DNA of 64,000 nt from Micromonospora ureilytica (GTDB lineage Bacteria; Actinomycetota; Actinomycetes; Mycobacteriales; Micromonosporaceae): the NCBI RefSeq assembly GCF_015751765.1, contig NZ_JADOTX010000001.1, positions 1,984,001 through 2,048,000 of the forward strand, read 5' to 3'. A program made the translations under genes and the position numbers. The notes under the pieces are model-generated. The model saw only the letters and a list, made by a program, of their open reading frames with translations, made no database searches and was not told the origin of the DNA. Shown in pieces: positions 13,657-36,557 of the stretch (its first letter is position 1; each line of letters begins with the position of its first letter).

Positions 13657-13702
13657 GGGCCACACCCACGTGACCGCCACCACATCGGACGAAGGGGCCG
13701 CC

Positions 13703-14833: not shown

Positions 14834-14852
14834 TGCCGAGGAGTGAGCGCAC

Positions 14853-16199: not shown

Positions 16200-16235
16200 C
16201 GCCGTCAAGGTCTGTGTCGAAGAGAGGAGCTGTTC

Positions 16236-19742: not shown

Positions 19743-21974
19743 TCAGCGGGAACTGTCGGTCAGCTCGCGGACGGCCAGTTGGTAGGCGGCCTGGGTGTGG
19801 TATGGCCAGTGCCGTTCGACCGGGGGTGGCACGGTGTCCAGGGGGTCGACGGTGAGGCTGCGGGGATCGCGGAGCCGGATGTCGACCTCGGCGGCCTCTG
19901 CGGCGGCGCAGGGCGACGCGGCGCCCACGGCCGGCGGGAAGATCGGCCCGCCGACCGGGTCGGTGTCACGCCACAGGTTCCGCCACCGCCACCCGATCCG
20001 GTCGCCCAGACCACAGAGCGCCTGCGGTCCCAGGTAGGCCGGGTAGAGCCGGGCGTAGGTGCGGCGCAGCGGCGAGCCGTAGGTGAGCAGCGAGACTCTG
20101 GACAGAACGGACGGCGGCAGTTGCAGGATGGTGGCGGCGGCGAGGACCGAGCCGTGACTGTGCCCGGAGAGGACCACCGGCCCGTGCGCGGCGAGCCCGG
20201 TGACCCGTTTCGCCAGCTCCGGAACGGAGCGGGCGGCGTAGCAGGGCGGCGCGAACGGGTGGACCGTGCGGGGCCAGAAGGTGCCCAGGTCCCACAGGAT
20301 GGCCACCACCCGGCGGGTCTGCGGTGACCGGTACGAGCGGAAGCCGAGGATCGCTAGGCAGATCACCAGCAGGCTGATCACCCAGACACCGGCGTCGGTG
20401 ACGTACGCGGCGAGCACGGCCAGCACACCACTCTGCCCGCTGAGCCGGGCCGCCAGTTGGGTGGGACCGATTCCGATCACGTCCAGGGCGACGGTGGCCA
20501 GCCCGAGGGACGCGATCACCAGGAACGCGATCAGTACCGGTCCCAACTCCTCGGTGACCCGGGACCGGGCGATCGTCTCCCGGACCTGGCACAGCCGGTA
20601 CGCACTCTCCGCCGTCACCGTCGGGTAGTCCCGCTCGACAATGCGCTCCGCCAGCCGGCGACGTCGCCGCCTGCTCAGCAGGAGCGTCGCCGAGGTGGCC
20701 GCCGCGCCGATCAGCAGCGCGGCGAGCCCGGCGAGCGCTGCCCACCAGTAGGCGACAGGCGGTTCCAGCGGGCCCAGGCTCGACGGGTCAGGTCGGATCG
20801 GGTCGGGGATGTGGCCGTGGTCGAGGGCGTCGGCGGTCCGGTAGACCAGGGTGGCCGTGAAGGCCGCGCCGACGCTCACCGCCGCGGCCGCCACGATCGG
20901 GGTGCCGAGCCCCCGCAGGAACGGGCGGCCCTCGGACCGGACGGCCCGGTGGCGGGTGTACGTGACGACGGCGAGCAGGACGAGCAGGACGCCCTGCGCG
21001 GCGACCACCCCGGCGGCGGCACCCTCGTACCCGGGCAGTTTGCCGGAACCGGACGGCTTCGAGCCGGCGAGGGCGGCCGAGCCGAGGCAGAGCACGCTCA
21101 CCGCGACGGTGGTCCACCAGAGCGCCCGCAGGAACCGCCGGGTCCGGGCCGCGCTGGCGGGCACGGGCAGGCTGAGCAGGACCACGCAGATCACCAGCAG
21201 CCCGACGGCCGCCACGAACTGCACGAGGTGCCCGGGGGTGGCTCCCCGCGAGATGCCGGCGAGCAGGCTGACGTCCAGGGTTGCGGCGCCGAGCGCCACG
21301 TGGACCTGGCGCAGCCAACCGATCGTCCGTTCGTCGTCCCAGAAACCGGCGTCGCCGAGCCGGTCGCCAGGGTCGGTGGCGGGCGGTTGCGCGGACGACG
21401 AGCCGAAGCCCTCGAACGCCCGCGCGGACCGGACGCCGATCCACCAGACGACCCGTAGCGCGAGCAGCGGGACGACCGACAGCAGGGCCAACCGTGGGCC
21501 GGACGGGACGGCGTGGAGCCACGCCAGGTACGGGCGGCTGGCCCGGCACCCGGGGTAGGGCACGCACTGCCAGCCGACCAGATCCAGCGTGACCCCCACG
21601 GCCGCCAACACGAAGGTGACGGTGAGGGTGCCGGCCAGCAGCCGGCAGAGCACCCCGAGCAACTGCCACCGGTCGCGCCCCGGGGGTCGCAGCCAGATGG
21701 CCAGGTTGCCCAGCATGAAAGGGAGCAGCAGCAACATCGACGCCGTCCGGACGGCCGCGCCGGCGGTCAGAGAACCCCAGCGGTACGCCTCGACGACCAC
21801 CCCCGGGGTGGCCCCGCCGGCGTCGCCGCTGCCGGGTCTGGGCCGGAAGAACCCCGCATGCGCGTCTCCGGCGACCCGGGTCACGACCGGGTGGTCCAGG
21901 ATCCGCTCCGCGGTCACCCCGGACACGCCGTGCACGCGCAACTCCACCGCATCGCCTACCGGCGTCCCGTTCAC
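19743..21974 (-). CDS. Large membrane protein with lipase-like alpha/beta-hydrolase domain
   Basis: A protein of about 743 residues with a soluble N-terminus (VELRVHGVSGVTAERILDHP), roughly nine to ten transmembrane helices and a C-terminal cytoplasmic or surface domain. Around residue 605, VVLSGHSHGSVLAAATILQL forms the nucleophile elbow GHSHG of lipases and esterases. Aspartate and histidine candidates follow, but the third triad member cannot be fixed. It is the last gene of the CIS-associated leftward operon. The start is uncertain: GTG 21974 is chosen because VELRVHGVSG looks like the true domain start; other GTGs lie upstream. Role unknown; it could be an effector, membrane anchor or lipid-modifying enzyme. 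Confidence 0.65.
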   Translation of the reverse strand: MNGTPVGDAVELRVHGVSGVTAERILDHPVVTRVAGDAHAGFFRPRPGSGDAGGATPGVVVEAYRWGSLTAGAAVRTASMLLLLPFMLGNLAIWLRPPGRDRWQLLGVLCRLLAGTLTVTFVLAAVGVTLDLVGWQCVPYPGCRASRPYLAWLHAVPSGPRLALLSVVPLLALRVVWWIGVRSARAFEGFGSSSAQPPATDPGDRLGDAGFWDDERTIGWLRQVHVALGAATLDVSLLAGISRGATPGHLVQFVAAVGLLVICVVLLSLPVPASAARTRRFLRALWWTTVAVSVLCLGSAALAGSKPSGSGKLPGYEGAAAGVVAAQGVLLVLLAVVTYTRHRAVRSEGRPFLRGLGTPIVAAAAVSVGAAFTATLVYRTADALDHGHIPDPIRPDPSSLGPLEPPVAYWWAALAGLAALLIGAAATSATLLLSRRRRRRLAERIVERDYPTVTAESAYRLCQVRETIARSRVTEELGPVLIAFLVIASLGLATVALDVIGIGPTQLAARLSGQSGVLAVLAAYVTDAGVWVISLLVICLAILGFRSYRSPQTRRVVAILWDLGTFWPRTVHPFAPPCYAARSVPELAKRVTGLAAHGPVVLSGHSHGSVLAAATILQLPPSVLSRVSLLTYGSPLRRTYARLYPAYLGPQALCGLGDRIGWRWRNLWRDTDPVGGPIFPPAVGAASPCAAAEAAEVDIRLRDPRSLTVDPLDTVPPPVERHWPYHTQAAYQLAVRELTDSSR

Positions 21975-22024
21975 GTCGTCAGGATCACAGACGATCCATC
22001 GGCGCACTGCCGATACCGCAAAGG

Positions 22025-22780
22025 TCAACGGGCCGGCAGGGAGGCGGTCACCCGGATGGCCTTGACGATCGCCGGGATGGAACCGATCAACAGCACCAGC
22101 CCCCAGATGATCGCGATGATCGCGAAGACGAGCGCCGCCACGTCGTCGACGATGCTGACCAGGATCACCGGCACCAGGTTGTGCAGGAACTCCAGCACGA
22201 CAGTGCACAGCAGGGTGGTGAGGATCAGCAGGACGAGGCCCTTGTTCTGCAGGAAGCGCGGCTGGGCCAGCACCAGCATCGCGGCCCACACCAGCTTGAG
22301 CAGCAACACCAGCCCGAGCAGCACCGCCGCCTCGCCGACCGGGAAGAACCCCCACAGCGCCAGGTACGCCAGGGTGCCGAACGGGACGGCGAGGAACAAC
22401 GACACCATGATGGACAGCTCCACGAACGCGACGACAAGCGCGACCAGCCCGACGATGATCAGGATGATCGAGAAGATCAGGCTGGCGACGCCCTGCACCC
22501 GACCCTGAACCCGCTCGGGCAGCAGCAGGCCCAGGCAGAACAGCCCGGTGCTCCAGACCGCCACCGCGTCGATCAACGCCAGGTAGCCGGTGCCCCGGCC
22601 GGACGGTTCGCTGACTCCGGACACGTCGTCGATCTCCACGTCCAACGCGCCGGCGCTGTCCGCGAGGGCCGCACCGGCGTCGGCGCCGCCGAGCAGCAGC
22701 CCGGAACCCAACTCCACCCCGATCGCCAGGACGATGGCGAGCATGGCCAGCAGCAGGAACGGCTTGCGCAGGTCACCCAC
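22025..22780 (-). CDS. Polytopic membrane protein of the CIS operon
   Basis: A 251-residue protein with a first helix (FLLLAMLAIVLAIGVELGSG), an extracytoplasmic acidic segment of about 30 residues, and five or six further helices. No catalytic motif is visible. GTG 22780 has GAGAGGAAGG seven bases upstream. It lies between the small lipid- or membrane-anchored protein gene and the membrane hydrolase gene in the leftward operon. Its membership suggests a membrane-docking or assembly role for the CIS, but this is inference. Confidence 0.65.
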   Translation of the reverse strand: MGDLRKPFLLLAMLAIVLAIGVELGSGLLLGGADAGAALADSAGALDVEIDDVSGVSEPSGRGTGYLALIDAVAVWSTGLFCLGLLLPERVQGRVQGVASLIFSIILIIVGLVALVVAFVELSIMVSLFLAVPFGTLAYLALWGFFPVGEAAVLLGLVLLLKLVWAAMLVLAQPRFLQNKGLVLLILTTLLCTVVLEFLHNLVPVILVSIVDDVAALVFAIIAIIWGLVLLIGSIPAIVKAIRVTASLPAR

Positions 22781-22810
22781 GGCGGCACCTTCCTCTCGAT
22801 CCAGATCGGG

Positions 22811-23272
22811 TCAGGACGTGGCCACGACGACCGTGCAGGCGCCCAGGCCGGGGCAGACCAGGCCCACGTCGGTGGCCTGGTCGACGGCGATCTTCGCCAC
22901 CGCGCCGGTGCCGTCCGCCGCCGGCTCGACCTCGTCGCGGATGGTGAGGTCGGCGTCGCCGCGCGCCGGGGCGACGACCGTGAACCGCGCCGCGCTGCGC
23001 AGCACCAGGGTGCGCAGCCCGCCGGGGTCCGCGACCCGCACCGCGCAGCTGCCGGTGAACTCCAGCCGGCCCGCCCCGTCGGCGCAGTCGGCGCTGACCG
23101 TGGCCGGATCCACAGCGGAACGCTCGCCGCCCAGCGCGCCCAACCGGTCGACCAGCCCGTGCCGGCCCCCCGGATCACCCCGGTCGTCGCGGCCCGCGCC
23201 GACCGCGACCACGAACAGCGCCACCAGCAGGACGGCGAAGAGCCCCAGCAGCGCCTTCTGCCGACCACTCAT
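22811..23272 (-). CDS. Single-pass membrane-anchored protein of the CIS operon
   Basis: A 153-residue protein with a short cytoplasmic start, one N-terminal transmembrane segment (ALLGLFAVLLVALFVVAVGA) and an exported domain of about 125 residues with four cysteines. Not recognised as a named family. Its ATG overlaps the previous stop as ATGA, so it is translationally coupled to the larger membrane protein upstream. It probably sits outside the membrane close to that neighbour. Confidence 0.65.
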   Translation of the reverse strand: MSGRQKALLGLFAVLLVALFVVAVGAGRDDRGDPGGRHGLVDRLGALGGERSAVDPATVSADCADGAGRLEFTGSCAVRVADPGGLRTLVLRSAARFTVVAPARGDADLTIRDEVEPAADGTGAVAKIAVDQATDVGLVCPGLGACTVVVATS

Positions 23273-24198
23273 CGCGCCACGGCCTGCGCCACGATCTCGG
23301 TGAACCGGATCTCGTCGACGCCCGCGAAGTAGCGGTTCGTGCCCTGCGTCTTGCCGACCACCAGCAGCGTGACCTGGTGCGGGCCCCTGGCGAGCTGGAC
23401 CGAGCCGACGTCCAGGAACTCCGTCTTCCGCACCGTCGGCGTGAAGCCGAGGAACGTGCCCCCGACCTGGTTGCCGTCGACGGCGAAGACGGTGTTGGCG
23501 TAGTCGGGGGCCGTGGTGCGAGTCGTGGCGAACCGCCAGGTGCCGTCGGCCGGGATCTGCACCGTCACGGTGACCTGATCGCCGATCGCCAACCCCGTGA
23601 AGAAGAGTTGCTTGTCCCCGGACCAGGTCACCCCGCAGCAGTTGGGCTGCGCGCCCACGGCCGCTTTGCTGTTCTGCGGCGACTTGATCACCGCGGCGTC
23701 CACCAGGCTCTCCGCCTCGACGGTGACCACCCGCGGCTCGCCGGGGGCCGGCTCGCCGTCGCGGGTCAGCAACACCACACCCACGGCGACCACCACCAGC
23801 ACCAACGCCGCCGCGGCGGCGATCCACAACCACGGGGTACGCCGTGGCGGCGCGACCGCCCGCACCTCGTACGTGACCCGGCCGCTGGAGCGGGAACTCT
23901 CCTCCGGAGCGGTGTTCGCCGAGTACGCGAACCCGGTCATGTCGTAGCGCCGGGGCGGGGTGCCGGCCGGCACGGCGAGCTTGACCAGGAACGACACCGA
24001 GCCCTGGCCGGGTACCACCCGTTGGGGCTCGGCGACGGTGAACCACGCCCGCTGGGAGCCGTCACCGGGCGCCACGTCGAACACCACAGTGTCCGGCGCG
24101 TTGCCCGGGTTGGAGACGGTGAAGGTCAGCTCGCCGCTGTTGCGCGGGTCGACTGTGAACTGCTCGGCGGCGGCGACGACCGCCCACTCGGTGGTCAT
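23269..24198 (-). CDS. Membrane protein with NEW3/APHP-like and carbohydrate-binding-like domains
   Basis: A 309-residue protein. Residues 1-115 form an Ig-like additional domain (FTVDPRNSGELTFTVSNPGN, DTVVFDVAPGDGSQRAWFTV) of the type in COG1470 proteins. A transmembrane helix follows near 122-145. The C-terminal 150 residues (TVEAESLVDAAVIK, PDYANTVFAVDGNQVGGTFL, SVQLARGPHQVTLLV) resemble galactose-binding/CBM35-like modules. Its ATG overlaps the tail protein I stop (ATGA). Similar Ig-type proteins accompany actinobacterial CIS loci. It may link the baseplate to the membrane or cell wall; that role is inferred. Confidence 0.65.
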   Translation of the reverse strand: MTTEWAVVAAAEQFTVDPRNSGELTFTVSNPGNAPDTVVFDVAPGDGSQRAWFTVAEPQRVVPGQGSVSFLVKLAVPAGTPPRRYDMTGFAYSANTAPEESSRSSGRVTYEVRAVAPPRRTPWLWIAAAAALVLVVVAVGVVLLTRDGEPAPGEPRVVTVEAESLVDAAVIKSPQNSKAAVGAQPNCCGVTWSGDKQLFFTGLAIGDQVTVTVQIPADGTWRFATTRTTAPDYANTVFAVDGNQVGGTFLGFTPTVRKTEFLDVGSVQLARGPHQVTLLVVGKTQGTNRYFAGVDEIRFTEIVAQAVAR

Positions 24199-24710
24199 GA
24201 CGACTCCTCTTCCAGGACGATCTCGACGGTGGCCGAGGCGGGTTTCTCCGCCTCGACGATGCGGGTGATCACGGCGAGCTGGCCGGCGGCGGCGACCGGC
24301 ACCCGCACCACGACGTGAAAGGGCCGCTCGGGGGGTTCGTCGATGGCGAAGCCCGACGTCCCGGTGGCCAGCTCCAGGGCCCGACGAATCCCGTACGGGG
24401 TGCCGCGCCAGCGGGCCAGCAGGGCGGCGTTGGCCACCAGGTCGCGCAGCCGACCCACCGGCAGCGGCAGCGGGGTGTCCGGCCGGGAGGAGGCGACCAC
24501 GTGGTCCATCGCCACCCAGCGGGTCAACCGCACGACCAGCCCGTCCGGCGCCCGGTACGGGTCGAACAGCGCGTCCACCTCGGCGAGGACCGCCTCGTCC
24601 GGGGCGTGCAGGCCCTCCATCACGTCCAGCAGCGCCCAGAGCACGCTGCCCGGCACGCAGGCCCGCTGGTAGGCGGCGGGCAGCAGCCGTTCAATCGCCG
24701 AGCGTCGCAT
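24195..24710 (-). CDS. Tail protein I-like baseplate protein (Afp12 type)
   Basis: A 171-residue protein of the phage tail protein I / TIGR02242 family, seen in extracellular contractile injection systems as Afp12/Pvc12. Diagnostic segments are LLPAAYQRACVPGSVLWALL near the start, LRDLVANAALLARWRGTPYG and IRRALELATGTSGF. In P2-type tails, protein I belongs to the baseplate wedge with protein J. The ATG overlaps the baseplate J gene by 20 bases, preserving the usual J-then-I order. Confidence 0.85.
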   Translation of the reverse strand: MRRSAIERLLPAAYQRACVPGSVLWALLDVMEGLHAPDEAVLAEVDALFDPYRAPDGLVVRLTRWVAMDHVVASSRPDTPLPLPVGRLRDLVANAALLARWRGTPYGIRRALELATGTSGFAIDEPPERPFHVVVRVPVAAAGQLAVITRIVEAEKPASATVEIVLEEESS

Positions 24711-27378
24711 CCTGGCGCACCACCTCGATGTCGTGCTCGCCGGAGCAGAGCAGCCAGGTATCCGGGACGGTCACCACGTCGGCGGTGGCCTGGTTGGCGC
24801 TGGGCGTCCACGTGACGGCGTCGGCGCTGCGGTGCACGCCGCGCTCGCCGCTGGCCAGGATCAGCCGCTCCGCCGCGACGGTGCCGCCGGTTGCCGTGCT
24901 GCCGGCTGTCGGGCCGCTCACCGCGATGGCGTCGACCGGCACGAACCGGGTCCGGTCCCGCAACGGCAACCCGCAGTTGACCGACACCGCCTGCCACTGC
25001 GGCTGGGCGGCCAGGGTGTCCAACCGCAGCACCCCGCCGCTCTGCGTGGCCGCCACCGCCTGCTGACCGGCGAACGCGAGGTCCCGGCAGGTGCCGCCGA
25101 TCCACCCGGCCTGCATCGACTGCCACTTCACGTCGGACTCGAACAGCCGGGTGCGGTGGCAGCCCTGGCCGGGCTTCTTCGGGTCCGGTTCGCCCGCGCC
25201 ACTCCACAGCAGGGTGGCCGGACCGTCGTACTGCACGGCGAGGACCCGGTTGTCCACGTTGGCCAGACCGACGTGGGTGAAGCTGCCGGGCCGGCCGCCG
25301 CTTGTCGACAGGTACACCCCGAAGCTGGCCTGCGCGGCCACCGCGACGCCCGGCGCGCCCCGCTCGGAGACGAACGTGCGGACCGCGTAGAAGCCCCGGT
25401 CGGCGTCGGACGGGTCGACAAGGATCTGCAACGGCACCGCCCCGGGCAGCAGTGACACCTCGTACAGGCCGGTGTCGGTGGCCACCAGCAGCGCGCCCGC
25501 GCCGTCGCGGTCCAACCAGGCCACGTCGGAGATCCGTGAGTCCAGGTCGGTGAGCAGTGACCACGTCTCGCCCAGGTCGGTGCTCAGGTGCACCCGGGAG
25601 CCACCCGATTCGCGAAGCGTCACCACGGCCACCGAGCCGGGACGCGCGACGATGCCCGGCCGTACCGGCGCGGGGGCGGGCGCCGCCCGCAGCACCGTCT
25701 CGCCGTCGAAGCGACCGGCCGGTTCCCAACCCGCGCCGCCGTTGCTGGAGCGGAACAGCACCGGGCCGCGTCCGGCGTACCAGGTGCGCGGCTGGTACTG
25801 GTCCACGGCGAGGGCGCGGACGTTCGCGTCGGGCGCCTCGTCGACCACGAAACGCACCGACTCGACGTAGCGCACCCCCGGTTCGGCGTGCTCCAGCAGC
25901 CGGTAGACGTTGGACGCCCGCAGTGGTTCGCCGAACGGCCAGCCGGTCGGGTTGAGCGCGGTGGGCAGCGGGCTCAACGTCTGGTGCAGCCGGTCGTGGA
26001 TGCGGCGACGGACCGCGTCCACGTCCTCCTCGCGGCGGACCACCACCCGCGCGCGTACCGACACCGCCTTGAAGCGGGCCCAGGTGGCTCGGGAGCGGAT
26101 GCCGAGCATCCGGCGTTCCTCCAGGTCCGCCTCGACCCGGTGGCGCGCCTCGGGCACCTCGTGCTCGCGCAGCACCGCCACCGGCAGCCGACCGCCCGGA
26201 CGGGCCGCCTCCGGCACGTACGGCACCAGCACCACCTCGACCTCGCCCGGCCGGGCGAAGCTGTACACCGCCGCGCGGGTGAACGCCCGGGCCCGCGCCA
26301 CCGCACCGGAGCTGGTAGCGAGGACCTCGAAGTCGCGGGCGGTGACCGCTCGTTGCTGGGCGAAGAACTCGTACGGGCCGCGCAGCAGCACCGACTCCAG
26401 CGCCTCGATCTCGCGGCCGCCGGCCGCCGGGGCGGGGTTGTCGACGCGTACCCCGGGCAGTGGGTCGCGCAGGCTGGTCAGCGTGCCCGCCGCCACGTTG
26501 CCGGTGGGCCCGCCACCGGCGCGGTACCAGAGCCGGATCTGCCGCCCGGCCGGCGGCACCGCCGCGATGGTCGCGAGCGGCGCAGCCGCGGTGGTCACCG
26601 GTGGCGCGGCGCCCGCCGGGTCGGCCGTGACCTCACCGGGCGGGGTCGCCCCGGCGGGGGGTCGCAGGTCGAGAGCGGGGGCGAAGGTGACAGTGCCCGA
26701 GCAACGGTCGACCAGGTACGCCTTGGCCTGCGGGCCGAGCCCGGCGAAGCTGTCCACCGGCTGCCAGATCTCGAACGTGCGACCGTCGTGCTCGCGGGCC
26801 GCCGCGCCCAGCTCGACAGTGCCGGCCGGCACCTCCACCCCGAGCAGCAGGTCCAGCGCCTCGGCGGTGTGCGTCAGCGGAGCGTGCGCCGCGCGCAGCA
26901 CCTGCCCCGGCTGGCCGGTGCCGACGCCGAGCAGCTCCGCCTCGACCGGTTCGCACTGGTGCATCCGTACCGTCACCGACGTCTCGTCGGCGGGCAGCAG
27001 CGTCGGCTCGGTGGTGACGAACACGACCGGCCGGGGGTCCGCGCCCCGGGCCGCCGCGACCCGCAGCCCGGCCGGGATCCGGACCGCGGCGCGGTCGGTG
27101 CCGGTACGGGTGAACCGGACGTCCGCCCAGGCCGCCGTCGGGGCGTGCCGGGTGACCCCGAGCAGGTTCAGGAACGAGACGTACGCTTTCTCCGGCAACT
27201 GGTTCAACCGGTAGATCATCACCTCGGTGAGGTGCGCGAACGTCTCCACCAAAGCCATGCCGGGGTCGTGCGCCGACAGGTCGGTCCACGCCGGACAGGA
27301 CTGCCGGATCCGTTCCCGGGCCTCGGTGACCAGGTCGAGGAAGCCGCGATCGTCCAGGTGCGGCACGGGCAGCGTCAT
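24691..27378 (-). CDS. Baseplate J-like wedge protein with C-terminal BNR/Asp-box propeller (Afp11 type)
   Basis: An 895-residue protein. Residues 1-520 match baseplate assembly protein J of CIS and phage tails: WTDLSAHDPGMALVETFAHL followed by TEVMIYRLNQLPEK is the family's signature N-terminus, and the segment ending AVTARDFEVLA is also characteristic. From about residue 525 the chain changes to Asp-box (BNR) repeats, for example VLFRSSNGGAGW, HLSTDLGETW, YLSTSGGRPG and VHRSADAVTW, which form a beta-propeller in sialidases and sortilins. No sialidase catalytic residues are evident. It overlaps the gp25 gene upstream by ATGA. The propeller could bind a ligand at the baseplate. Confidence 0.85.
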   Translation of the reverse strand: MTLPVPHLDDRGFLDLVTEARERIRQSCPAWTDLSAHDPGMALVETFAHLTEVMIYRLNQLPEKAYVSFLNLLGVTRHAPTAAWADVRFTRTGTDRAAVRIPAGLRVAAARGADPRPVVFVTTEPTLLPADETSVTVRMHQCEPVEAELLGVGTGQPGQVLRAAHAPLTHTAEALDLLLGVEVPAGTVELGAAAREHDGRTFEIWQPVDSFAGLGPQAKAYLVDRCSGTVTFAPALDLRPPAGATPPGEVTADPAGAAPPVTTAAAPLATIAAVPPAGRQIRLWYRAGGGPTGNVAAGTLTSLRDPLPGVRVDNPAPAAGGREIEALESVLLRGPYEFFAQQRAVTARDFEVLATSSGAVARARAFTRAAVYSFARPGEVEVVLVPYVPEAARPGGRLPVAVLREHEVPEARHRVEADLEERRMLGIRSRATWARFKAVSVRARVVVRREEDVDAVRRRIHDRLHQTLSPLPTALNPTGWPFGEPLRASNVYRLLEHAEPGVRYVESVRFVVDEAPDANVRALAVDQYQPRTWYAGRGPVLFRSSNGGAGWEPAGRFDGETVLRAAPAPAPVRPGIVARPGSVAVVTLRESGGSRVHLSTDLGETWSLLTDLDSRISDVAWLDRDGAGALLVATDTGLYEVSLLPGAVPLQILVDPSDADRGFYAVRTFVSERGAPGVAVAAQASFGVYLSTSGGRPGSFTHVGLANVDNRVLAVQYDGPATLLWSGAGEPDPKKPGQGCHRTRLFESDVKWQSMQAGWIGGTCRDLAFAGQQAVAATQSGGVLRLDTLAAQPQWQAVSVNCGLPLRDRTRFVPVDAIAVSGPTAGSTATGGTVAAERLILASGERGVHRSADAVTWTPSANQATADVVTVPDTWLLCSGEHDIEVVRQDATLGD

Positions 27379-28144: not shown

Positions 28145-29736
28145 CAGCCGCCTCCTTGGTGGTGGGCGCGGGCGAGCGAACGGGCCTGCTCCGCCGCGGT
28201 GGTCGGGTCCTCGGTCGAGTCGGCGTGCAGGAAGTCCACGCTGCGGGCGCGCACCACCATGGCCCGGCCGGGTGCGGAGATCACCAGGTCGGACGCCGCG
28301 TGCAGGGTGGCCAGGTCGGGGGTCAACTCCAGGAAGCTGCCGCCGTCGGTGGCCAGCCGCAGGCTGCGCCGCACGTCGTCGACGACTATCGACTGCCCGC
28401 CGGCGGTGCGCATCGTCCAGCGGCGGGCCTTTCCGTCGTCGATGCCCGCGTCGTACGGCTCGACGGCGCCGAACAGCGAACCGAGCACGATGCCCGAGGC
28501 CGGCTCGCCGCCGGGCAGCACCACCAGCACTGTGTCGTCCGGATCGGGGAGCGCCACCAGACCCTTGCCCGGACCGGCACCGGGGCAGAGCACGGCGAGC
28601 CAGCCGGCGTCCAGGTCCCCGTACGCCGGCAGGGTCAACCGGACCCGGCCCAGCCCGTCCGGGTCGGCGACGTCGGTGACGGTGCCGAGGGTGACCACCG
28701 CGCCGCCGGTCGGGGTCGCCGGGGTGGCCGGCGGCACCGTGGAGAAGCGGGTCAGGTGCCCGTTTCCGTCCACTGTGTGCACCACCTCGGTCAGCACGTA
28801 CGTCCCGGCGACCGGGTCGGGCACACCGCCGACGTCGACGCGGCGCCCCGGCCGCAGCGCCGGATCGCCCTCGGCCACCCCCTCGGCCGTGACCAGCGCC
28901 GCCGCGCGGGTGTCCAGACGGGCCTGGGCCAGCGCCGCCAACTCGTCGTCGCTGCGGCCGGGCTGGTCCACGGCGGTGCGAACGCCGTCGGCGCCCACGT
29001 CGGCCGGGTCCGGGCGGTCGTCGGCGGGCCGGCCGCAACGCGCCTCGTCGACGTGCTGGCTGATCACCTCGGCCCGCTGCGGGTGCCAGCCCAGGGCCGC
29101 GCTGGCACCACTGGCCTGGTCGGTGTTGGTGGACAGCCGCAGGGTGTGCACCCCCGCGCCGAGCGTCAACGCGATCGGCTCCCCGTAACCGGCGAGCGTG
29201 ACAAGCCGGACCCCGTCACCGTCGGCGGCCAGGTGCAGCCCGGCCCGGCCGGCCACCTCACGCAGCAACTCCAGGTCACTGTGCCGGTGCTGGAGCAGCC
29301 GCTCCAACCGAGGGCCGTCGACCTCGGCCGTCACCGCCAACCCCACCGCGCCGCACAGCTCCCGGGCCAGCTCGACGGCTGTCACCGAGGTGAAGACCCG
29401 CAACCCCTGCCGCTTGCGCAGCCGGTGCAACGTGTCGTACGCCCGCAACCGCAGGACCGCGGCCCCGTCGGCGGCGTACTCCACCTCCACACAGGTGACC
29501 TCACCGGTGAACAGGGCCTCCGCGTGGTCGGTGAGCCGGACGTCGAGCGTCGTGCCGGGGCGTACCGCCGGGTCGAACGCGCCGGTCCCGGCGGTGGTGG
29601 CGAGCACCAGCTCGGCCTGGGTGGGCTGGTCGAGGCGAGCCGCCACCCGCAGCGAGCGGACCCGCTGACGGGCCGCGCCGACCAACTCGGCGCCGTCGAG
29701 CAGGACGAGCAACGCCCGGGGCGCGATGCTGGTCAC
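28144..29736 (-). CDS. VgrG-like spike protein (Afp8 type)
   Basis: A 530-residue protein. Residues 1-340 resemble the phage late control protein D / gp27 domain (QPTQAELVLATTAGTGAFDP, AYDTLHRLRKRQGLRVF, HRHSDLELLREVAGRAGLHL). Residues 360-430 form the gp5 OB domain with VTDVADPDGLGRVRLTLPAY and LPDPDDTVLVVLPGGEPASG. The remainder builds the beta-helical needle base. In CIS this trimer forms the central spike pushed out on contraction. The start is GTG 29736, overlapping the LysM gene stop by four bases. No extra effector domain is fused at the C-terminus. Confidence 0.9.
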   Translation of the reverse strand: MTSIAPRALLVLLDGAELVGAARQRVRSLRVAARLDQPTQAELVLATTAGTGAFDPAVRPGTTLDVRLTDHAEALFTGEVTCVEVEYAADGAAVLRLRAYDTLHRLRKRQGLRVFTSVTAVELARELCGAVGLAVTAEVDGPRLERLLQHRHSDLELLREVAGRAGLHLAADGDGVRLVTLAGYGEPIALTLGAGVHTLRLSTNTDQASGASAALGWHPQRAEVISQHVDEARCGRPADDRPDPADVGADGVRTAVDQPGRSDDELAALAQARLDTRAAALVTAEGVAEGDPALRPGRRVDVGGVPDPVAGTYVLTEVVHTVDGNGHLTRFSTVPPATPATPTGGAVVTLGTVTDVADPDGLGRVRLTLPAYGDLDAGWLAVLCPGAGPGKGLVALPDPDDTVLVVLPGGEPASGIVLGSLFGAVEPYDAGIDDGKARRWTMRTAGGQSIVVDDVRRSLRLATDGGSFLELTPDLATLHAASDLVISAPGRAMVVRARSVDFLHADSTEDPTTAAEQARSLARAHHQGGG

Positions 29737-30635
29737 GGCGTACCCCCGGGGTTGCCGGACCCGCCCGGACCCGCGCCGGTCGTGCCGGTGGCCGCGTTCC
29801 ACGGCGCTCCGGCGATCGAGCCGCCCACGTACGACGCTCCCGCGCCCACCGCGCCCACCGCCCCGGCCACCGCCCGAGCCAGCCCGCTCGCCGCACCGCC
29901 GACGGTCGACCCGACTCCGGTACCGACGGTCGGTGGGACGGCGAGGGTGGTGCCGGCCGGCACGGCGAGGGGATCGGTGATCCGGTTGTGTTCGGCCAGC
30001 AGCCGCCAGCGCAGCGGCGAGCCCAGCGCGTCGTTGGCCAGCAGGTCGAAACGCACACCGGAGCGACCCGGCTCGGCCGCGCCGTCACCGGCGGCGATCA
30101 CCGCGCTGCCCGGCGCGGCGGTCGGGGTGCTCGCGGCGGCCAACTCCTCGGCGAAGCCGGCCTCGGCCTGGTCGGCCGTCTCGGCGGCGCGGACCAGTTT
30201 CAGCCGCAGCCAGGACCGTCGCGGCGACCCGGTGCCGGTGAACGCGTCGAAGCGCTCCGCCACCGCGATGATCACACCGGGCACGTTCCAGGTCTTGCCC
30301 CAGACCAACCGGACCAGCGGCGGTCGCAGCCAACCGTGCTCGGCGGTGGAGTTCTCCGCCAGCATCCACAGCGGACGGGTCAGCACCCGCACGTCGGCCG
30401 GACGGAGTTGCGCCTCCACGAAGTCGACGTCGAAGAGCAGGTCCAGCACCAACTCGGTACGGCCGCCGCCGGTGAAGACCAGCGGGTCGTCGGCCAGACC
30501 GGACCCGGTGAGCTGCCCGCCGCCGGCACCCCGCTGGCGTACGCCGGCGAGCCGGGTCACCTGCACGGTCTCCGGGTTGAGCAGGCAGTCCACCCGCTCG
30601 CCGGAGGAGTCGATGAGGAAGGCGACACGTTCCAT
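29733..30635 (-). CDS. CIS tube-associated LysM protein (Afp7 type)
   Basis: A 300-residue protein. The N-terminal 150 residues (RVDCLLNPETVQVTRLAGVR, TELVLDLLFDVDF, RPPLVRLVWGK) match the contractile-system tube protein family found between tube and spike. Residues 195-238 (LGSPLRWRLLAEHNRITDPL ending in AGTTLAVPP) form a LysM domain. The last 60 residues are a Gly/Ala/Pro tail. LysM-bearing Afp7 proteins cap the inner tube at the baseplate hub. The gene overlaps both neighbours by one to four bases. Confidence 0.88.
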   Translation of the reverse strand: MERVAFLIDSSGERVDCLLNPETVQVTRLAGVRQRGAGGGQLTGSGLADDPLVFTGGGRTELVLDLLFDVDFVEAQLRPADVRVLTRPLWMLAENSTAEHGWLRPPLVRLVWGKTWNVPGVIIAVAERFDAFTGTGSPRRSWLRLKLVRAAETADQAEAGFAEELAAASTPTAAPGSAVIAAGDGAAEPGRSGVRFDLLANDALGSPLRWRLLAEHNRITDPLAVPAGTTLAVPPTVGTGVGSTVGGAASGLARAVAGAVGAVGAGASYVGGSIAGAPWNAATGTTGAGPGGSGNPGGTP

Positions 30636-32065
30636 CAGTCGCCCGCCTGTTCCCGATCGAGCCGGTTCAGCTCGGCGGTGTCCAGCGCCGCGGCGGCGAC
30701 CGACCACAGGGCCGTGTCGTCGGGCAGCGCCGGCCAGGGATCCAGCGCCGTCGCGTCGGCCCGGAACACCATGCTCTCCGACCCTCGCCCGACGCCTGGA
30801 TCGCGCTGCGCCGAGTCGATCCCGGCGACACCTCCGGCCCTCGCGGTCTGACCGGTCCGGTTTCCGGTGCCCTGTCCACCTCGCTCGCCAACCCGCTGCC
30901 CCGACCACGACCGATCGTCCGGAAGGGCCGGCCACCGGCCGTCGGCCACCACTTCGCCCTCGGTCGACCCCCAGCCCGTGTCTGCCTCGCCGACAGCCGA
31001 CCACCCGTACCGAGCCGCCGCTCGATCCGGCCTCGCCCCGCCGAGATCGGCGGAGCCAGTTGTGGACCTTGGAAGGTAAGGGCCCCTGGGAGGGCCGGAA
31101 TCTTCCAAGATCTCGGCAGGGGCGGTGTGGGTCGGAGGGTTCGCTGGGGAGGTTTGCTCGTCGATTCGGGGTAGTTCTCTCGGGTCAGCGGCTGTGGCGT
31201 CGTCCCGCGCCGGTCCGGTCGCCGTGAGCCGTCGGGATGGCGGGCGCAGACGCCAACCGTCCGACAGCACGCCCGACGGACGTCGGTCCCCACCAGTAGT
31301 GAGGGGCGCCTCGGCGGTCATCGCGACGTCGGAGGTGTCACTGCTGCCCCGTGGCCCGACACCGCTGACCCCCTGGCTGCCGGACGAGTCGGCCGCGCTC
31401 GACACGTGCTCCGACCTCCCGGTTGGACCCGTCGAGTGCGATCCGTGCGGCCTTCCGTCCTCGCTCACCGCCTCCGGCCCGTGGACGCCGTACGCCTCGA
31501 CCACCGTTGGGTTGTCACCCGCCGTGCCACGCAGGGCGGACGCTGGGCGGCCACGCCCATCGGAGTGCGCGGCCAGGTCAGGCCCGCTCATGCTGGTCGC
31601 GCGGCCGGACCCACTACCCGTGTCTGGGGCACGACGACCCACTGTGCCGGGGGCACGGCGACCCACTGTGCCGGGGGCACGGCGACCCACCGAGTCGGCG
31701 GGGAGTCCGGCACCCTCCCCGACGGGCCGAGGTGCTCGGGAAACCGCGGTCCACCGGCCCGGCCCGTCCCGGTCGACCCGGTCGCCGAAGCCGGATCCAT
31801 CGGCGGGGTCATCGCGCCCCTCCATCGGTTCCGCGGCGGGTGGGTCGAGGTCCAGGTCGTGCAGCAGGCCCGGCGCGTGGGCGGCGACCAGGTCCAGCCA
31901 GTGCTGCGGAGGCTCCCCGAAACGACGCGGTGTCGGCACGGGGGTCTCCGACGGCGGCGGAGGGTGTCCGGCGGGCTCGACCCGACCGGCGAGGCGCTGC
32001 ACCGCCCCGGCCGCCGCGCGCAGCCGGCCGGCCAGCCAGCTACGCGGGCGTCGGCGCGGTGGCAC
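30635..32065 (-). CDS. Long disordered low-complexity protein inside the CIS operon
   Basis: A 476-residue protein, rich in Pro, Ser, Gly, Arg, Asp and Thr, mostly predicted disordered. Two short structured parts are visible: a basic N-terminus (MPPRRRPRSWLAGRLRAAAG) with HWLDLVAAHAPGLLHDLDLD, and a C-terminal WPALPDDTALWSVAAAALDT helix. WPALPDD occurs twice, suggesting an internal repeat. Three 24-bp repeats encode VGRRAPGT copies. It overlaps the tube gene by 26 bases and the LysM gene by one, so it is translated as part of the CIS. It occupies a place where no standard CIS protein is known. It could be a scaffold, a chaperone or a linker; none is shown. Confidence 0.6.
   Translation of the reverse strand: MPPRRRPRSWLAGRLRAAAGAVQRLAGRVEPAGHPPPPSETPVPTPRRFGEPPQHWLDLVAAHAPGLLHDLDLDPPAAEPMEGRDDPADGSGFGDRVDRDGPGRWTAVSRAPRPVGEGAGLPADSVGRRAPGTVGRRAPGTVGRRAPDTGSGSGRATSMSGPDLAAHSDGRGRPASALRGTAGDNPTVVEAYGVHGPEAVSEDGRPHGSHSTGPTGRSEHVSSAADSSGSQGVSGVGPRGSSDTSDVAMTAEAPLTTGGDRRPSGVLSDGWRLRPPSRRLTATGPARDDATAADPRELPRIDEQTSPANPPTHTAPAEILEDSGPPRGPYLPRSTTGSADLGGARPDRAAARYGWSAVGEADTGWGSTEGEVVADGRWPALPDDRSWSGQRVGERGGQGTGNRTGQTARAGGVAGIDSAQRDPGVGRGSESMVFRADATALDPWPALPDDTALWSVAAAALDTAELNRLDREQAGD
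31627..31698. repeat. Three tandem 24-bp repeats in the disordered CIS protein gene
   Basis: Units at 31627-31650, 31651-31674 and 31675-31698 differ at only a few bases, the third most diverged. On the coding strand they read VGRRAPGT-type octapeptides. Their number may vary between strains. Confidence 0.8.
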
Positions 32066-32522
32066 CGCCGGTCTCCAGCTCCAGGCCCTCGTAGCGCAGG
32101 GTCAGCGAGGCGATGGCGATCTCGTGGCTGAGCGTGTTGAGGTGCATCCCGCGCCACCGGGTGGGCCAGCAGTCGATCAGGTTCCAGCGCAGCACCTCGG
32201 CGGTCCCGACCGAGTCCAGCAGCACCACGGAGACGTTGCGGCGGTTGAGCGTGCCCTGGGCGGTGGCGTTCACCCAGTCCCACAACTCGCGGGAGGCGGT
32301 TATGCCGAAGTGCAGCGTCACCGGCTCGTACTCGGCCTGACCGGGCACCATCCGCATCCGACCCAGGCCGTGCTCCCGGTACGGCTGCCCGGGGATGTTC
32401 ACCTCCAACCCGGTCATCTCGGTGAAGTGGCCGTTGGTGACGCCGTTGATGAGCAGCCGGAAGTTGTAAGCCCGGTACGGGTCGACCGGGGCGCCGGGCT
32501 GCGGGGTGGCGGTGGTGGGCAT
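32040..32522 (-). CDS. CIS inner tube protein (Afp1/Afp5 type, gp19-like)
   Basis: A 160-residue T4 gp19-like tail tube protein (TIGR02241 type). AYNFRLLINGVTNGHFTEMT, the GLGRMRMVPGQAEYEPVTL segment with the RELWDWVN helix, and the final LTLRYEGLELE are diagnostic. It forms the rigid inner tube through which cargo moves. It follows the sheath gene by one base. Only this tube gene is seen in the window, whereas many CIS carry two or three paralogues. Confidence 0.9.
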   Translation of the reverse strand: MPTTATPQPGAPVDPYRAYNFRLLINGVTNGHFTEMTGLEVNIPGQPYREHGLGRMRMVPGQAEYEPVTLHFGITASRELWDWVNATAQGTLNRRNVSVVLLDSVGTAEVLRWNLIDCWPTRWRGMHLNTLSHEIAIASLTLRYEGLELETGGATAPTPA

Positions 32523-32523
32523 G

Positions 32524-33786
32524 TCAGCCTCCGATCGTCTCGGTCTCGGTGCCGCCGGCCCACTGGCTCAGCTTGAACACCACGAATTCGGCGGGCTTGA
32601 CGACAGCGATGCCGATGTGGGCGATCACCATGCCCGCGTCGCGCACGTCCGGCGGGTTGGTCTCCTCGTCGCACTTGACGAAGAACGCCTCCTCCGGGCT
32701 GCGCCCCAACAGCGCGCCGTCGCGCCACACCCGGGTGAGGAAGGCCCCGATGTCGCGCCGGATCGAACGCCAGAGGGTGAAGTCGTTGGGCTCGAACACC
32801 ATCCACCGGGTGCCGTTGGCGATGGCCTGCTCGATGGCGATGCTGAGACGTCGGACGTTGAGGTAGCGCCACTCGCTGGCCTCGGCGGCGAGCGTACGGG
32901 CGCCCCAGACGCGGATGCCCTCGCCGGCGAAGTAGCGGATCACGTTGACGCCCTTGGGGTTGAGCACGTCGTGTTCCGGTCGGGTGACGAGGTAGCCCAG
33001 GTCGACGGCGCCGCGCACCGGCTCGTTGGCCGGGGCCTTGTGCACCCCGCGCAGGGCATCGGTGCGGGCCCAGATGCCGGCCAGGTGCCCGCTCGGCGGG
33101 GTGAGTTCCAACTCGCCGCTGATCGGGTCGCGTACCCGCAGCCACGGGTAGTAGAACGCGCCGAACTCGGACTGTCGCGGCCGGTAGGCAGCCCCCTCGT
33201 GGCCGCCGGAGCCGCCCGGCTGGGCCGGGCCGCCGCCGGTACCACCGGCCGCGCCGCCGCCCGTACCCTCGGCGGGCTTGGGGGGTTTTCCGGAGGACGG
33301 CGTGGCGACCCGGGTCAACGCGGAGATGTCGTCGATGTCCGGTGCCGGGTCGCAGATCGCCACCATGGTGCGGGTGCGCTCGGCCATGCTGAGCAGCGCC
33401 TCGTGCGACACCACGTCGTGGAAGCCGGGCGCGGCGATGATGGAGATCTCGTCGACGGCCTCCAGCAGTTGCAGACCGCCGCGCCGCTGCCCGGTGCCGG
33501 TGATCGCGCCACCCTCGCCGACGTTGACCACCCAGCAGCGGGCGCCTCCGTTGTCCAGGAAGCCGAAGACCGCGCGGGCCAGCGGGGTGCTCTCCACCCG
33601 CTCCCCACCGGCGAAGAGCCGCAGGAACTCCGTCCAGTTGTTGACCGGCACCGCCTTGCCCAGGTGGGCGGAGCGGTCCGGGGCGACGCCGACGAAGGCG
33701 GCGATGCTGGTGCTCGCCGGCCCGATCGGTCGGGCGCCGCTGGGGACCTCCTCGACATAGATGCCGGGGGAGAAGTAACTGGGCAT
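32524..33786 (-). CDS. Contractile sheath protein (Afp2-4 type)
   Basis: A 420-residue tail sheath protein. The N-terminus SPGIYVEEVPSGARPI is the family hallmark; WMVFEPNDFTLWRSIRRDIG and EEAFFVKCDEETNPP are conserved in the C-terminal sheath core. A Gly/Pro insertion at about residues 164-199 lies on the outer face of other sheaths. The sheath surrounds the tube and contracts to drive it forward. ATG 33786 has a full AGGAGG upstream. A single sheath gene is present here instead of the two or three common in Afp/PVC loci. Confidence 0.92.
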   Translation of the reverse strand: MPSYFSPGIYVEEVPSGARPIGPASTSIAAFVGVAPDRSAHLGKAVPVNNWTEFLRLFAGGERVESTPLARAVFGFLDNGGARCWVVNVGEGGAITGTGQRRGGLQLLEAVDEISIIAAPGFHDVVSHEALLSMAERTRTMVAICDPAPDIDDISALTRVATPSSGKPPKPAEGTGGGAAGGTGGGPAQPGGSGGHEGAAYRPRQSEFGAFYYPWLRVRDPISGELELTPPSGHLAGIWARTDALRGVHKAPANEPVRGAVDLGYLVTRPEHDVLNPKGVNVIRYFAGEGIRVWGARTLAAEASEWRYLNVRRLSIAIEQAIANGTRWMVFEPNDFTLWRSIRRDIGAFLTRVWRDGALLGRSPEEAFFVKCDEETNPPDVRDAGMVIAHIGIAVVKPAEFVVFKLSQWAGGTETETIGG

Positions 33787-33809
33787 CGGTCCTCCTGTGC
33801 CTGTGGGTG

Positions 33810-34508
33810 TCAGTGGGTCGGTGGCGCGCAGACGATGACGATGTCGTCCTCGGCCGGGTCGACGTCGGCGGTGAGGACGAGCCCGCGGCCGGTCAGCCGC
33901 AGCCGGACCGGGCTCGGGTGCTCGGGGTCGTGCGGGACGCCGACGATCAGGAATCGGCCCTCGGGGTCGGTGCGGGTGGCGGACCCGGTGCCGGGAAGCT
34001 CGACCCGCATCGCGGCCAGTGGCTGGTCCTGGGGGCCGACCACCCGCCCACTGAGGCTGCGCACGTCGAGTTGCCGCAGCCGCAGTGGTTGCAGCACCGG
34101 CGGCGCGGCCGGAGTCGGGTGGTCCACCTGCGTCGCCACGTCGATCAGCAGCGCCGGTCGGGGCGCCGTACCGAACGCCGTCCACAGTGGCGCGTCACCG
34201 GCCTCCAGCACGACCGGATACCTGCCGTCGCTCGTCGCGGCGGTCAACACCCGGTCCAGCCGGGGCAACCCGGCCGGCCCGGTCACACAGAGCAGGTGGC
34301 GGACCGTGAACCGGTACGGTTCGCGGACCGCGCCGCTGGAGCGGGTCTGCCGGGCCGAGCGCAGCTCCATCGGCCAGAGGGTGAGCCCGTCGGCGTCGTC
34401 GCAGGCACGGGGCGGGCCGACCGGGACGGGTTCCCCCGCCGCGCCGGTCACCCAGGCGACCAGCTCGGCGGTGGCGGTCTCGATCGGTCCGCGCCCGTGG
34501 GTGCTCAT
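33810..34508 (-). CDS. DUF4255/Pvc16-like protein with carboxypeptidase-regulatory-like domain
   Basis: A 232-residue protein upstream of the sheath gene. The N-terminal part (WPMELRSARQTRSSGAVREP, YRFTVRHLLCVTGPAG, RPALLIDVATQVDHP) resembles the DUF4255/Pvc16 N-terminal domain, whose family members cap or terminate CIS tails. Residues 155-225 (LSGRVVGPQDQPLAAMRVEL and EGRFLIVGVP) form a carboxypeptidase regulatory-like beta-sandwich. Cap function is inferred from family and location, with moderate confidence. It overlaps the following membrane protein gene by four bases. Confidence 0.65.
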   Translation of the reverse strand: MSTHGRGPIETATAELVAWVTGAAGEPVPVGPPRACDDADGLTLWPMELRSARQTRSSGAVREPYRFTVRHLLCVTGPAGLPRLDRVLTAATSDGRYPVVLEAGDAPLWTAFGTAPRPALLIDVATQVDHPTPAAPPVLQPLRLRQLDVRSLSGRVVGPQDQPLAAMRVELPGTGSATRTDPEGRFLIVGVPHDPEHPSPVRLRLTGRGLVLTADVDPAEDDIVIVCAPPTH

Positions 34509-35113
34509 CGCGGTGGCGTCCCCTGGATCCGGTACGCGATGGCCTCGTTCCACACGTGCGGGTAGACGCCGATCTCGAAGTACCTGGTGAAACGGTTGAT
34601 CGGCGCGTTGGTGTGGTCGTGGTAGAGCAGCCACACCGGCGCGATGGTGAACAGGACGTAGTTGGCCAGCACCAACGGGATGTAGAGCGGCCCGAGCAGG
34701 CGACCCTGGAAGATGTGCACGTCCTCGTGCCGCTGGATGCCCGAGCTGGAGCCGGCGCAGACGGTGCCGATGGTGGTGGCGTACCTGGTCGAGACCCCCT
34801 CCACCACGCTGACCCGACCGCTGCCCAGCGACGTCGGCCGGTCCAGCGAGTGCCCGAAGATCAGGTGCACGGTCAGGTAGATGGCGCCGACGACAGTGTT
34901 GAGCAGACTCCAGGTGTGGTCGACGACGAAGAGGAAGATGCCGCGGGCGTCCGAGGCGTACACCCCGGCGGAGGCCACCGACCAGCCGAAGACCGCGCCG
35001 ATCACCAGGCCCACGACGGCGCCGATCAGCAGCCCGACCGGGCCACCGGCGAGGAAACCGAGCAGGGCGCCGAAGCCGACCTGGATGGCCGTGCTGAGAA
35101 TTCCGAAGACCAT
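34505..35113 (-). CDS. Membrane zincin-like protein of the CIS operon
   Basis: A 202-residue protein with Gly-rich N-terminal helices (residues 10-48), a further helix near 60-85 and another near 143-165. HEDVH at residues 129-133 in RHEDVHIFQGRLLGPLYIPL matches the HExxH zinc site of a family whose members read HExVHxxQ followed by GPL and, later, a third ligand in an NEAxAYR-like segment. Here NEAIAYR supplies Glu190. Metallopeptidase activity is plausible but not shown. ATG 35113 is chosen over the longer frame because the upstream residues are non-conserved. It could process a CIS component or act on the cell envelope. Confidence 0.6.
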   Translation of the reverse strand: MVFGILSTAIQVGFGALLGFLAGGPVGLLIGAVVGLVIGAVFGWSVASAGVYASDARGIFLFVVDHTWSLLNTVVGAIYLTVHLIFGHSLDRPTSLGSGRVSVVEGVSTRYATTIGTVCAGSSSGIQRHEDVHIFQGRLLGPLYIPLVLANYVLFTIAPVWLLYHDHTNAPINRFTRYFEIGVYPHVWNEAIAYRIQGTPPR

Positions 35114-35124
35114 GACGACACCCC

Positions 35125-35460
35125 TCAGACCCAGGAACGGAAGACTCGGGGCTCGCGACCGCTCGCGACCTGGGTCGGCGTCGCCTGTCGGTTGCCGGGC
35201 GGGAACTGGTTGACGCCGAGCGCGGCGGAGAAGATGACAAGCGCGTTGAAGAACGCGATGAACCACTTCTCGCCGCCGGCGTCGTCGGCGAACGCCGCTG
35301 TCACGTAGGACAGCAGCAGCGCGATGGCGATGGCGATCCACTTGCGGAGCTTGTCGCCGCTCGGGCCGATCAGCCCGCCGATGACGTTGGTGGCCAGCAG
35401 GGTGGCGGCGCTCGCGCCGGCGATGGTCCCCAGGGCTGCCCAGGTGAAGAGATCGTTCAT
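35125..35460 (-). CDS. Small membrane protein at the start of the CIS operon
   Basis: A 111-residue protein with three predicted helices (FTWAALGTIAGASAATLLAT, the KWIAIAIALLLSYVTAAF segment and FFNALVIFSAALGV) and a 20-residue soluble tail. The arrangement recalls small holin-like or anchor proteins but no family is recognised. ATG 35460 has AAGGGGG eight bases upstream and the gene precedes the zincin gene by 11 bases. It is probably the first gene of the CIS transcription unit. Confidence 0.6.
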   Translation of the reverse strand: MNDLFTWAALGTIAGASAATLLATNVIGGLIGPSGDKLRKWIAIAIALLLSYVTAAFADDAGGEKWFIAFFNALVIFSAALGVNQFPPGNRQATPTQVASGREPRVFRSWV

Positions 35461-36388: not shown

Positions 36389-36557
36389 GGGCTCAGTGTG
36401 TGTGATCGCTTTCATTATCAGCAGTCAGCGATCAGTCACAATGAAGTCGCCGATTGTACCGGCGCACTGTCGCCTTTGATTAGCTCCGACGACGACCCGA
36501 AAGACTATTCTGGAGCTTTGGGGCGGCTGCTGTTGCAACTGCTTGCCCGCGACGCTC

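Follow-up and report, generated by a model that had tools for sequence, protein, structure and literature searches.

A minimal contractile injection system operon of Micromonospora ureilytica, without a detected ATPase, that may act on the producer's own membrane

Gene regions of extracellular contractile injection systems (eCISs) are said to encode an AAA+ ATPase 'invariably' (PMC10020575), and a metagenome survey that required several gene classes used the ATPase for cluster sorting (PMC12210884); a lineage of contractile injection systems (CISs) without this gene could therefore be missed. In Streptomyces without the ATPase, particles look normal and the cells behave as eCIS-deficient mutants (PMC10020575). 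Three proteins, Sco4256-4258, are described as CIS-associated, membrane-spanning effectors required for tube-lumen filling, with one transmembrane (TM) segment, a similar N-terminus and varying C-termini, including carbohydrate-binding ones (PMC10066040), and Sco4256 itself has three parts, the first domain resembling a pilus chaperone (PMC10020575). In this report we describe a CIS operon of Micromonospora ureilytica, contained in a stretch of 64,000 nucleotides (contig NZ_JADOTX010000001.1, positions 1,984,001 to 2,048,000; hereafter the window) of a 7.1-Mb single-contig genome, whose closest named sheath sequences come from Micromonospora. The operon is an intact member of a well-supported separate lineage and not a damaged copy. 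Our main reading, to which we give a probability of roughly 0.5, is that it belongs to a separate, minimal, IId-related CIS lineage which acts from the inside on the membrane of its own cell.

The operon resembles CISSc of Streptomyces coelicolor (dbeCIS lineage IId) in having a single sheath together with Cis16, Cis2, Cis1, Cis7, Cis8, Cis9, Cis11 and Cis12 parts (PMC10066040, PMC12237407, PMC10020575). Both also have a one-TM protein encoded just after the baseplate genes, immunoglobulin-like (Ig) TM proteins of the Sco4256 kind, and no recognised tail fibre or typical tape measure (PMC10066040). Unlike CISSc, the minimal CIS is without a detected AAA+ ATPase, second tube, eCIS_core effector or CisA homologue, and it has a predicted beta-propeller on Cis11, a shorter sheath, two membrane proteins named here m251 and m153, and a disordered protein with conserved motifs. 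Streptomyces-type IId loci carry two inner-tube genes (cis1a, cis1b); here there is one gp19-type tube gene, and the protein matching PF19266 is Cis7-like.

All genes of the operon lie on the minus strand, from 36415 down to 22025 or 19743, in the order LppM lipoprotein, m111, m202, Cis16-like cap, sheath, tube, a disordered protein of 476 aa, the PF19266 (Cis7-type) protein, spike, a 112-aa protein, gp25, J, tail protein I, m309, m153, m251 and a hydrolase-like protein of 740 aa. From m111 through m251, adjacent genes overlap or are at most 30 nt apart. The initial annotation had listed sheath, tube, spike, gp25, J and tail protein I, and all six exceed the Pfam cut-offs: the contractile sheath (Cis2, 420 aa, 32524-33786; PF04984 and PF17482), the inner tube (Cis1, 32040-32522; PF06841, E 6.4e-31), the VgrG-like spike/hub (Cis8, GTG start, 28144-29736; PF05954 and PF04717), the gp25-like sheath initiator (Cis9, 27375-27809; PF04965, E 8.1e-25), the baseplate wedge J (Cis11, 895 aa, 24691-27378; PF04865) and tail protein I (Cis12, 24195-24710; PF09684, E 4.3e-7, with TIGR02242 and CIS12_fam of NCBIfam below cut-off). 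Their presence together identifies the locus as a CIS. A gene labelled 'LysM' is indeed a tail part, although it encodes a 300-aa Cis7-type tube-baseplate adaptor (29733-30635) that matches PF19266 (CIS_tube, E 4.4e-11) and no LysM profile. Similarly, the 112-aa 'PAAR-like' gene (27806-28144) exists and is in order in all 57 loci that have all ten tested genes (see below), but the name lacks Pfam backing, and we call it Cis10-like by place only. Two genes had been overlooked. One encodes the Cis16-like cap protein (33810-34508), with a carboxypeptidase-regulatory-like C-terminal domain (CarboxypepD_reg, E 2.4e-6, below cut-off); it has no Pvc16_N match, and its Ktedonobacter homologue matches Pvc16_N over cut-off (E 2e-7). 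The other is the gene of the disordered protein (30635-32065), to which we return below.

The claims of a single sheath and tube and of a missing ATPase extend from the window to the whole genome, which contains one sheath, one gp19-type tube and one J. An ATPase elsewhere in the genome had been named as the finding that would speak against the initial reading. With the 721-aa CIS ATPase of a classical Micromonospora CIS as the query and all 60 candidates scored, only AAA-like frames were found in this genome (best E 5.7e-21, with 33% over the AAA part, in a 331-aa frame), and none reached E 1e-30. An eCIS_core effector was likewise not found in the window genome, in a search without a positive control of its own (the corresponding search of 61 genomes gave 17 positives), and eCIS_core cargo was rejected as a candidate here. 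Among these 61 genomes, 20 contain a minimal sheath, 16 a classical one, two both and 27 neither; this count excludes two weak, stop-containing sheath matches (G017 and G036, E about 6e-4). At E 1e-30, with up to 18 candidates scored per genome, a CIS ATPase was detected in 0/18 minimal-only genomes versus 14/16 with a classical sheath, and in 0/27 sheathless ones. The eCIS_core domain follows the same distribution (0/18 versus 16/16, and 1/27 sheathless, G049). Where a genome contains both systems, as two do, the distance between the ATPase and the classical sheath is 4 to 5 kb. Furthermore, no CIS ATPase was found at E 1e-5 in 1.38 Mb covering 80 minimal loci, while the same queries recover ATPases in classical stretches. 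The minimal loci are thus outside the description of eCIS regions by their AAA+ ATPase (PMC10020575), and no ATPase-less CIS lineage was recognised in the open-licence literature. As a separate observation, the classical loci L094 (G011), L122 (G024) and L123 (G050) encode eCIS_core proteins, with a CIS ATPase undetected.

These searches also bear on the view that the locus encodes an ordinary released eCIS whose missing functions are supplied elsewhere in the genome. Its core tail genes are eCIS-like, and the best solved match of its sheath is chain 8bky, which we take to be the sheath of a Streptomyces CIS. Against this, sheath, tube and J were each found only once in the genome, the searches for a CIS ATPase and an eCIS_core protein were negative, and no tail-fibre gene was recognised by eye at the usual place; we regard a released particle as quite improbable.

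The comparison was extended to homologous loci, of which the best 80 of 219 sheath matches were kept; 59 of them reach tail protein I and 67 have room upstream of the sheath, and conservation was counted on tblastn and profile matches, not on called genes. The hosts are Micromonospora, Verrucosispora, Hamadaea, Catellatospora, Allorhizocola, Rhizocola, Microlunatus, Actinopolymorpha and Arthrobacter and, outside the actinobacteria, Ktedonobacteria, Anaerolineae and Caldilineaceae (Chloroflexota). Ten tested genes occur in one order on one strand in 57/59 loci, and the remaining two are short only of a cap gene detectable by tblastn. Because this order is kept over two phyla, the operon is judged intact. 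A degenerate prophage tail, R-tailocin or decaying CIS would agree with the reduced gene set; it is hardly credible in view of this conservation, by which a damaged prophage was ruled out, and inspection of the called genes by eye showed no capsid or other phage gene, the region outside the operon not having been searched with profiles. In the sheath tree (26 minimal, 14 classical) the minimal lineage is on one side of a 100/100 branch, and in the J tree (26 minimal, 9 classical) it is likewise split off by a 100/100 branch. Sheath and J are thus placed outside the classical group, in trees that were midpoint-rooted only, that raised a long-branch warning and that include no named Streptomyces sequence. 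The sheath is 397-434 aa long in 25 minimal loci versus 534 for 8bky. In one locus (L100, genome G021) an opposite-strand gene (L100:1812-3023, +) stands inside the operon, between tail protein I and m309; by eye it resembles, presumably, a TnpB-type transposon nuclease. A CIS clade of Roseiflexus and Deinococcota is similar in its Chloroflexota hosts and as an intracellular CIS of IId kin (PMC12998442). In contrast to the minimal CIS, the reference cluster of Roseiflexus includes a gene for the ATPase (PMC12998442).

The initial annotation had counted six membrane or membrane-anchored proteins and suggested a membrane-anchored CIS. Hydrophobic segments are indeed found in m111, m202, m309, m153, m251 and the 740-aa hydrolase-like protein, yet as a lineage trait the claim narrows to m309 and m251, which are locked to the minimal CIS, and to m153, which is kept with it in most loci, while m111, m202 and the hydrolase do not extend over the whole lineage. 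The genes of tail protein I and m309, and again those of m309 and m153, overlap by 4 nt, and membrane genes and baseplate genes are therefore linked. The product of the first of these membrane genes, m309 (23269-24198), was characterised with AlphaFold2, Foldseek, hhalign and tblastn as a protein with a predicted Ig-like inside domain, one TM helix and an outside domain resembling carbohydrate-binding modules (CBMs) of families 6/35. Its AlphaFold2 model (predicted local distance difference test score, pLDDT, 85.9; predicted template modelling score, pTM, 0.50) has a beta-sandwich at residues 1-115, a TM helix at 123-145 and a second beta-sandwich. The outer domain resembles MiXBM and CBM6/35 modules (Foldseek match 7ehg, TMt 0.82-0.84), and 7ehg is also matched by the m309 sequence (E 1.9e-6). 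Flanking charges favour an N-inside orientation in 31/39 m309 homologues.

By tblastn, 59/59 loci contain a match to m309 on the downstream side of tail protein I; in Arthrobacter and Ktedonobacteria, m153 is placed between the two. Full-length m309 occurs in 19/20 minimal-sheath genomes, the exception being the fragmented G004, and in genomes without a minimal sheath its sugar-binding half is found alone, in other, mostly much larger frames. A second, broken copy is seen in G006. The homologues conserve the inner half and exchange the outer one, for PASTA in 14/39 and for Kelch, META and NHL in one each; no open-licence paper was found that contains 'contractile injection' and 'PASTA domain' together. 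Tandem copies after tail protein I, with inner halves better conserved than the differing outer ones and reminiscent of a set of swappable receptors, were noticed in six loci (L050, L065, L067, L072, L076 and L080), some of these copies being cut by the locus end. In the L050 pair the inner half and TM helix are identical at 142/143 positions and the outer halves at 44/179.

The relatives of m309 are found among the Ig-TM proteins. A search at E 1e-3 in 14 classical loci gave no m309 match; by hhalign, its inner domain shows homology to the Ig domain that one-TM proteins of classical CIS loci carry (94.6%). Aligned with 120 relatives, it reaches 95.7% (E 9e-9), and six control alignments reach 0.3-7.7%. 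Where named, these relatives are mostly from Micromonospora, Actinoplanes and Streptomyces, and many are annotated as 'hydrolytic protein' or COG1470, a family which we take, from its architecture and its name, to be that of Sco4256. In its homologous Ig-like N-terminal domain, TM helix and variable C-terminus, m309 is Sco4256-like, by hhalign and with the family link drawn from architecture.

Because its inside domain is homologous to that of Sco4256-like effectors, m309 may be cargo rather than an anchor, in which case, too, its destination would be the membrane. The corresponding alternative is a free cytoplasmic, Streptomyces-like CIS which carries a Sco4256-like membrane-spanning effector packed in its tube and, on firing, inserts it into the producer's membrane. 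Besides the homology to the 'hydrolytic protein'/COG1470 family, the tandem copies match the pattern of the published effectors, a similar N-terminus with varying C-termini (PMC10066040). However, no CIS ATPase for loading and no eCIS_core protein was found, m309 is encoded at the place of CisA or of a tail fibre with a 4-nt overlap with tail protein I, its PASTA, CBM and Kelch outside domains resemble binders more than toxins, and m251 and m153 are left unaccounted for. This alternative is therefore given a minor share of our belief, albeit one that has to be taken seriously; m309 may be an adaptor, a toxin delivered inside the tube, or both.

Two further proteins encoded in the operon set the minimal lineage apart. 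Its J protein is roughly 200 to 250 residues longer than classical kin, with 840-901 aa in 58/59 loci (772 in one) versus 646 and 653 in two classical loci; the classical lengths were taken from G011, G024 and G040 (644-646 aa) and these two loci, and several other classical J frames are short through start choice (141 aa in G010). In the window, the last 345 residues (encoded by 24691-25728) form a predicted beta-propeller (AlphaFold2 pLDDT 82.5, pTM 0.82, with low confidence near the C-end), which Foldseek matches to Ycf48, WD40 and similar propellers at a TM-score of about 0.5; Pfam returns only a BNR box at E 0.1. The thylakoid-anchored CIS of Anabaena is similar in that a baseplate extension and a TM segment have been proposed for anchoring (PMC8894136). 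There, the extension is on Cis12 and the TM domain in Cis13, whereas the minimal CIS has a C-terminal propeller on Cis11 and separate TM proteins (PMC8894136).

The second is the disordered Ala/Pro/Gly-rich protein of 476 aa, whose start is uncertain and whose N- and C-terminal motifs are conserved. The gap between the tube and 'LysM' genes is filled over at least 85% by an open reading frame (ORF), of 289-605 aa, in 65 loci besides the window; one locus, L021, was dropped for a wrong frame. The protein consists to 56% of P, G, S, T and A. Near its C-end, a WPxL motif is present in 66/66 sequences including the window (1% in shuffles), and a PxHWxxxV-type motif near the N-end in 57/66 including the window (0.03% in shuffles), being missing from nine Catellatospora, Allorhizocola and Rhizocola loci. 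A short in-frame repeat, VGRRAPGT, is found at 31600-31700 on the minus strand. Two classical loci examined have a long proline-rich protein at this place, and that of L094 contains an eCIS_core domain. In phages, the tape measure is encoded at the corresponding place; a tape measure beyond the reach of homology searches may be present here. Over cut-off, neither PHROGs nor NCBIfam assigned a family to the disordered protein or to the membrane proteins.

The remaining membrane genes differ in how closely they follow the tail. The small protein m153 (22811-23272), with an N-terminal membrane segment, was traced across loci by a family profile and tblastn, in 50/59 and 46/59 loci, respectively, including Arthrobacter and Chloroflexota by profile. 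Hydropathy gives seven segments for the polytopic m251 (22025-22780), which has a tblastn match in 40/59 loci, many loci stopping short of it. It is present in 20/20 minimal-sheath genomes versus 1/41 others, where the copy is broken by TGA. This copy (G036:C23:34468-35142), in a genome without a minimal sheath, is perhaps the relic of a lost system. Four Chloroflexota loci have m251 next to the operon but on the opposite (minus) strand, upstream in L064, L074 and L077 and downstream in L073.

Such lineage-locked membrane proteins are also what a membrane-anchored machine resembling the type VI secretion system (T6SS), firing outward into neighbours, would be expected to have. The hosts, however, are monoderm with thick walls; inspection by eye of the neighbourhood of the operon, a dedicated search not having been made, revealed no toxin-immunity pair, and no CIS ATPase was found, ClpV not having been searched by name. 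This outward direction is improbable in our judgement, although a membrane-bound CIS of haloarchaea, whose mode of action is tied to one conserved polytopic membrane protein with six TM segments, offers a parallel (PMC11566945). The haloarchaeal cluster, unlike the minimal CIS, has an ATPase and two Cis11 genes, and the likeness of m251 to Hbor_38620 is by description only (PMC11566945). The initial proposal of anchoring is thus supported in part: a minimal system with lineage-locked membrane genes and no detected ATPase is what was found, and anchoring, as a permanent contact of the minimal CIS with the membrane, is possible.

We return to the main reading, action from the inside on the cell's own membrane. 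Because neither an ATPase nor cargo genes were detected and the operon is shared with membrane proteins, the simplest reading of the sequences is that the machine probably meets and pierces the producer's own membrane. The tail would assemble in the cytoplasm. The disordered protein, held by its end motifs, would fill or measure the tube, since an ATPase to load soluble effectors appears to be missing. The baseplate, most likely via the Cis11 propeller, would meet the inside Ig domain of m309, with m251 and m153 as putative partners in the membrane, and the outside domain, sugar-binding-like here and PASTA or Kelch elsewhere, could bind or sense the cell envelope. Upon envelope damage, contraction through the own membrane would follow and lead to regulated lysis or death. 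In Streptomyces, CisA, which is encoded at the place of m309, is needed for CIS contraction, and Cis11 is its predicted partner (PMC12237407). For the Anabaena CIS, too, a role in cell death under stress has been proposed (PMC8894136). Like CisA, m309 follows the baseplate genes and has one TM helix with a predicted N-inside topology.

Several observations weigh against this interpretation. The absence of the ATPase is not unique to the minimal lineage, as it was undetected in genomes G024 and G050 despite a classical sheath and in one of the two classical loci of G011; ATPase loss has therefore occurred elsewhere too. The match of the J propeller is at fold level only, m153 was not found by profile in 9/59 loci, and m251 was found in no Arthrobacter locus. 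In 8/39 m309 homologues the charges do not favour N-inside (five ties, three opposite), and the Fisher tests in the analysis of tandem copies and charge ignore relatedness. The kin of m309 have been named as effectors (PMC10066040). Finally, m309 was rejected as a CisA homologue, as it scored 0.2-0.7% by hhalign with six CisA-like proteins from classical loci, a set that excluded CisA of S. coelicolor itself.

A more far-reaching version is put forward tentatively, as one we would sooner doubt than accept in its entirety: the minimal CIS could represent a third, self-directed kind of CIS, loader-free and kept at the producer's membrane through an Ig-TM receptor with a sensor outside (CBM, PASTA, Kelch or META) that is swapped between species, with envelope-damage sensing leading to contraction and self-lysis and the disordered two-motif protein serving as tape measure or tether.

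At the upstream end of the operon, a 145-nt gap separates m111 from the gene of an LppM-domain lipoprotein or membrane protein (269 aa, 35606-36415; PF21946, E 5.8e-31), which lies upstream of the sheath in 39/67 loci with room, all of them Micromonosporaceae. The three-TM protein m111 (111 aa, 35125-35460), with three hydrophobic segments and no match in Pfam, PHROGs or NCBIfam, is found there in 40/67 loci, including two of Actinopolymorpha, and the glycine-zipper-like m202 (202 aa, 34505-35113; Pfam Gly-zipper below cut-off) in 39/67; the loci with these three genes are nearly all from Micromonosporaceae. A HEDVH stretch, possibly a metal-binding motif of the HExxH kind, was seen by eye in m202 ahead of the last hydrophobic segment. 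At the downstream end, the polytopic 740-aa protein (19743-21965, start uncertain) carries a C-terminal GHSHG hydrolase-like motif, noted by eye; among other minimal-CIS genomes that could be read for 5 kb or more beyond m251, only 1/7 contains it, and it was rejected as a core gene. Past this end, genes of a LacI-type regulator and a sugar ABC transporter were noticed by eye (13655-18118, plus strand). Long antisense or overlapping ORFs in this GC-rich window were judged spurious.

The minimal CIS offers a natural near-minimum of the parts of a contractile tail. Furthermore, through the swapped outside domains of m309, the trigger of a cytoplasmic CIS becomes open to direct tests.

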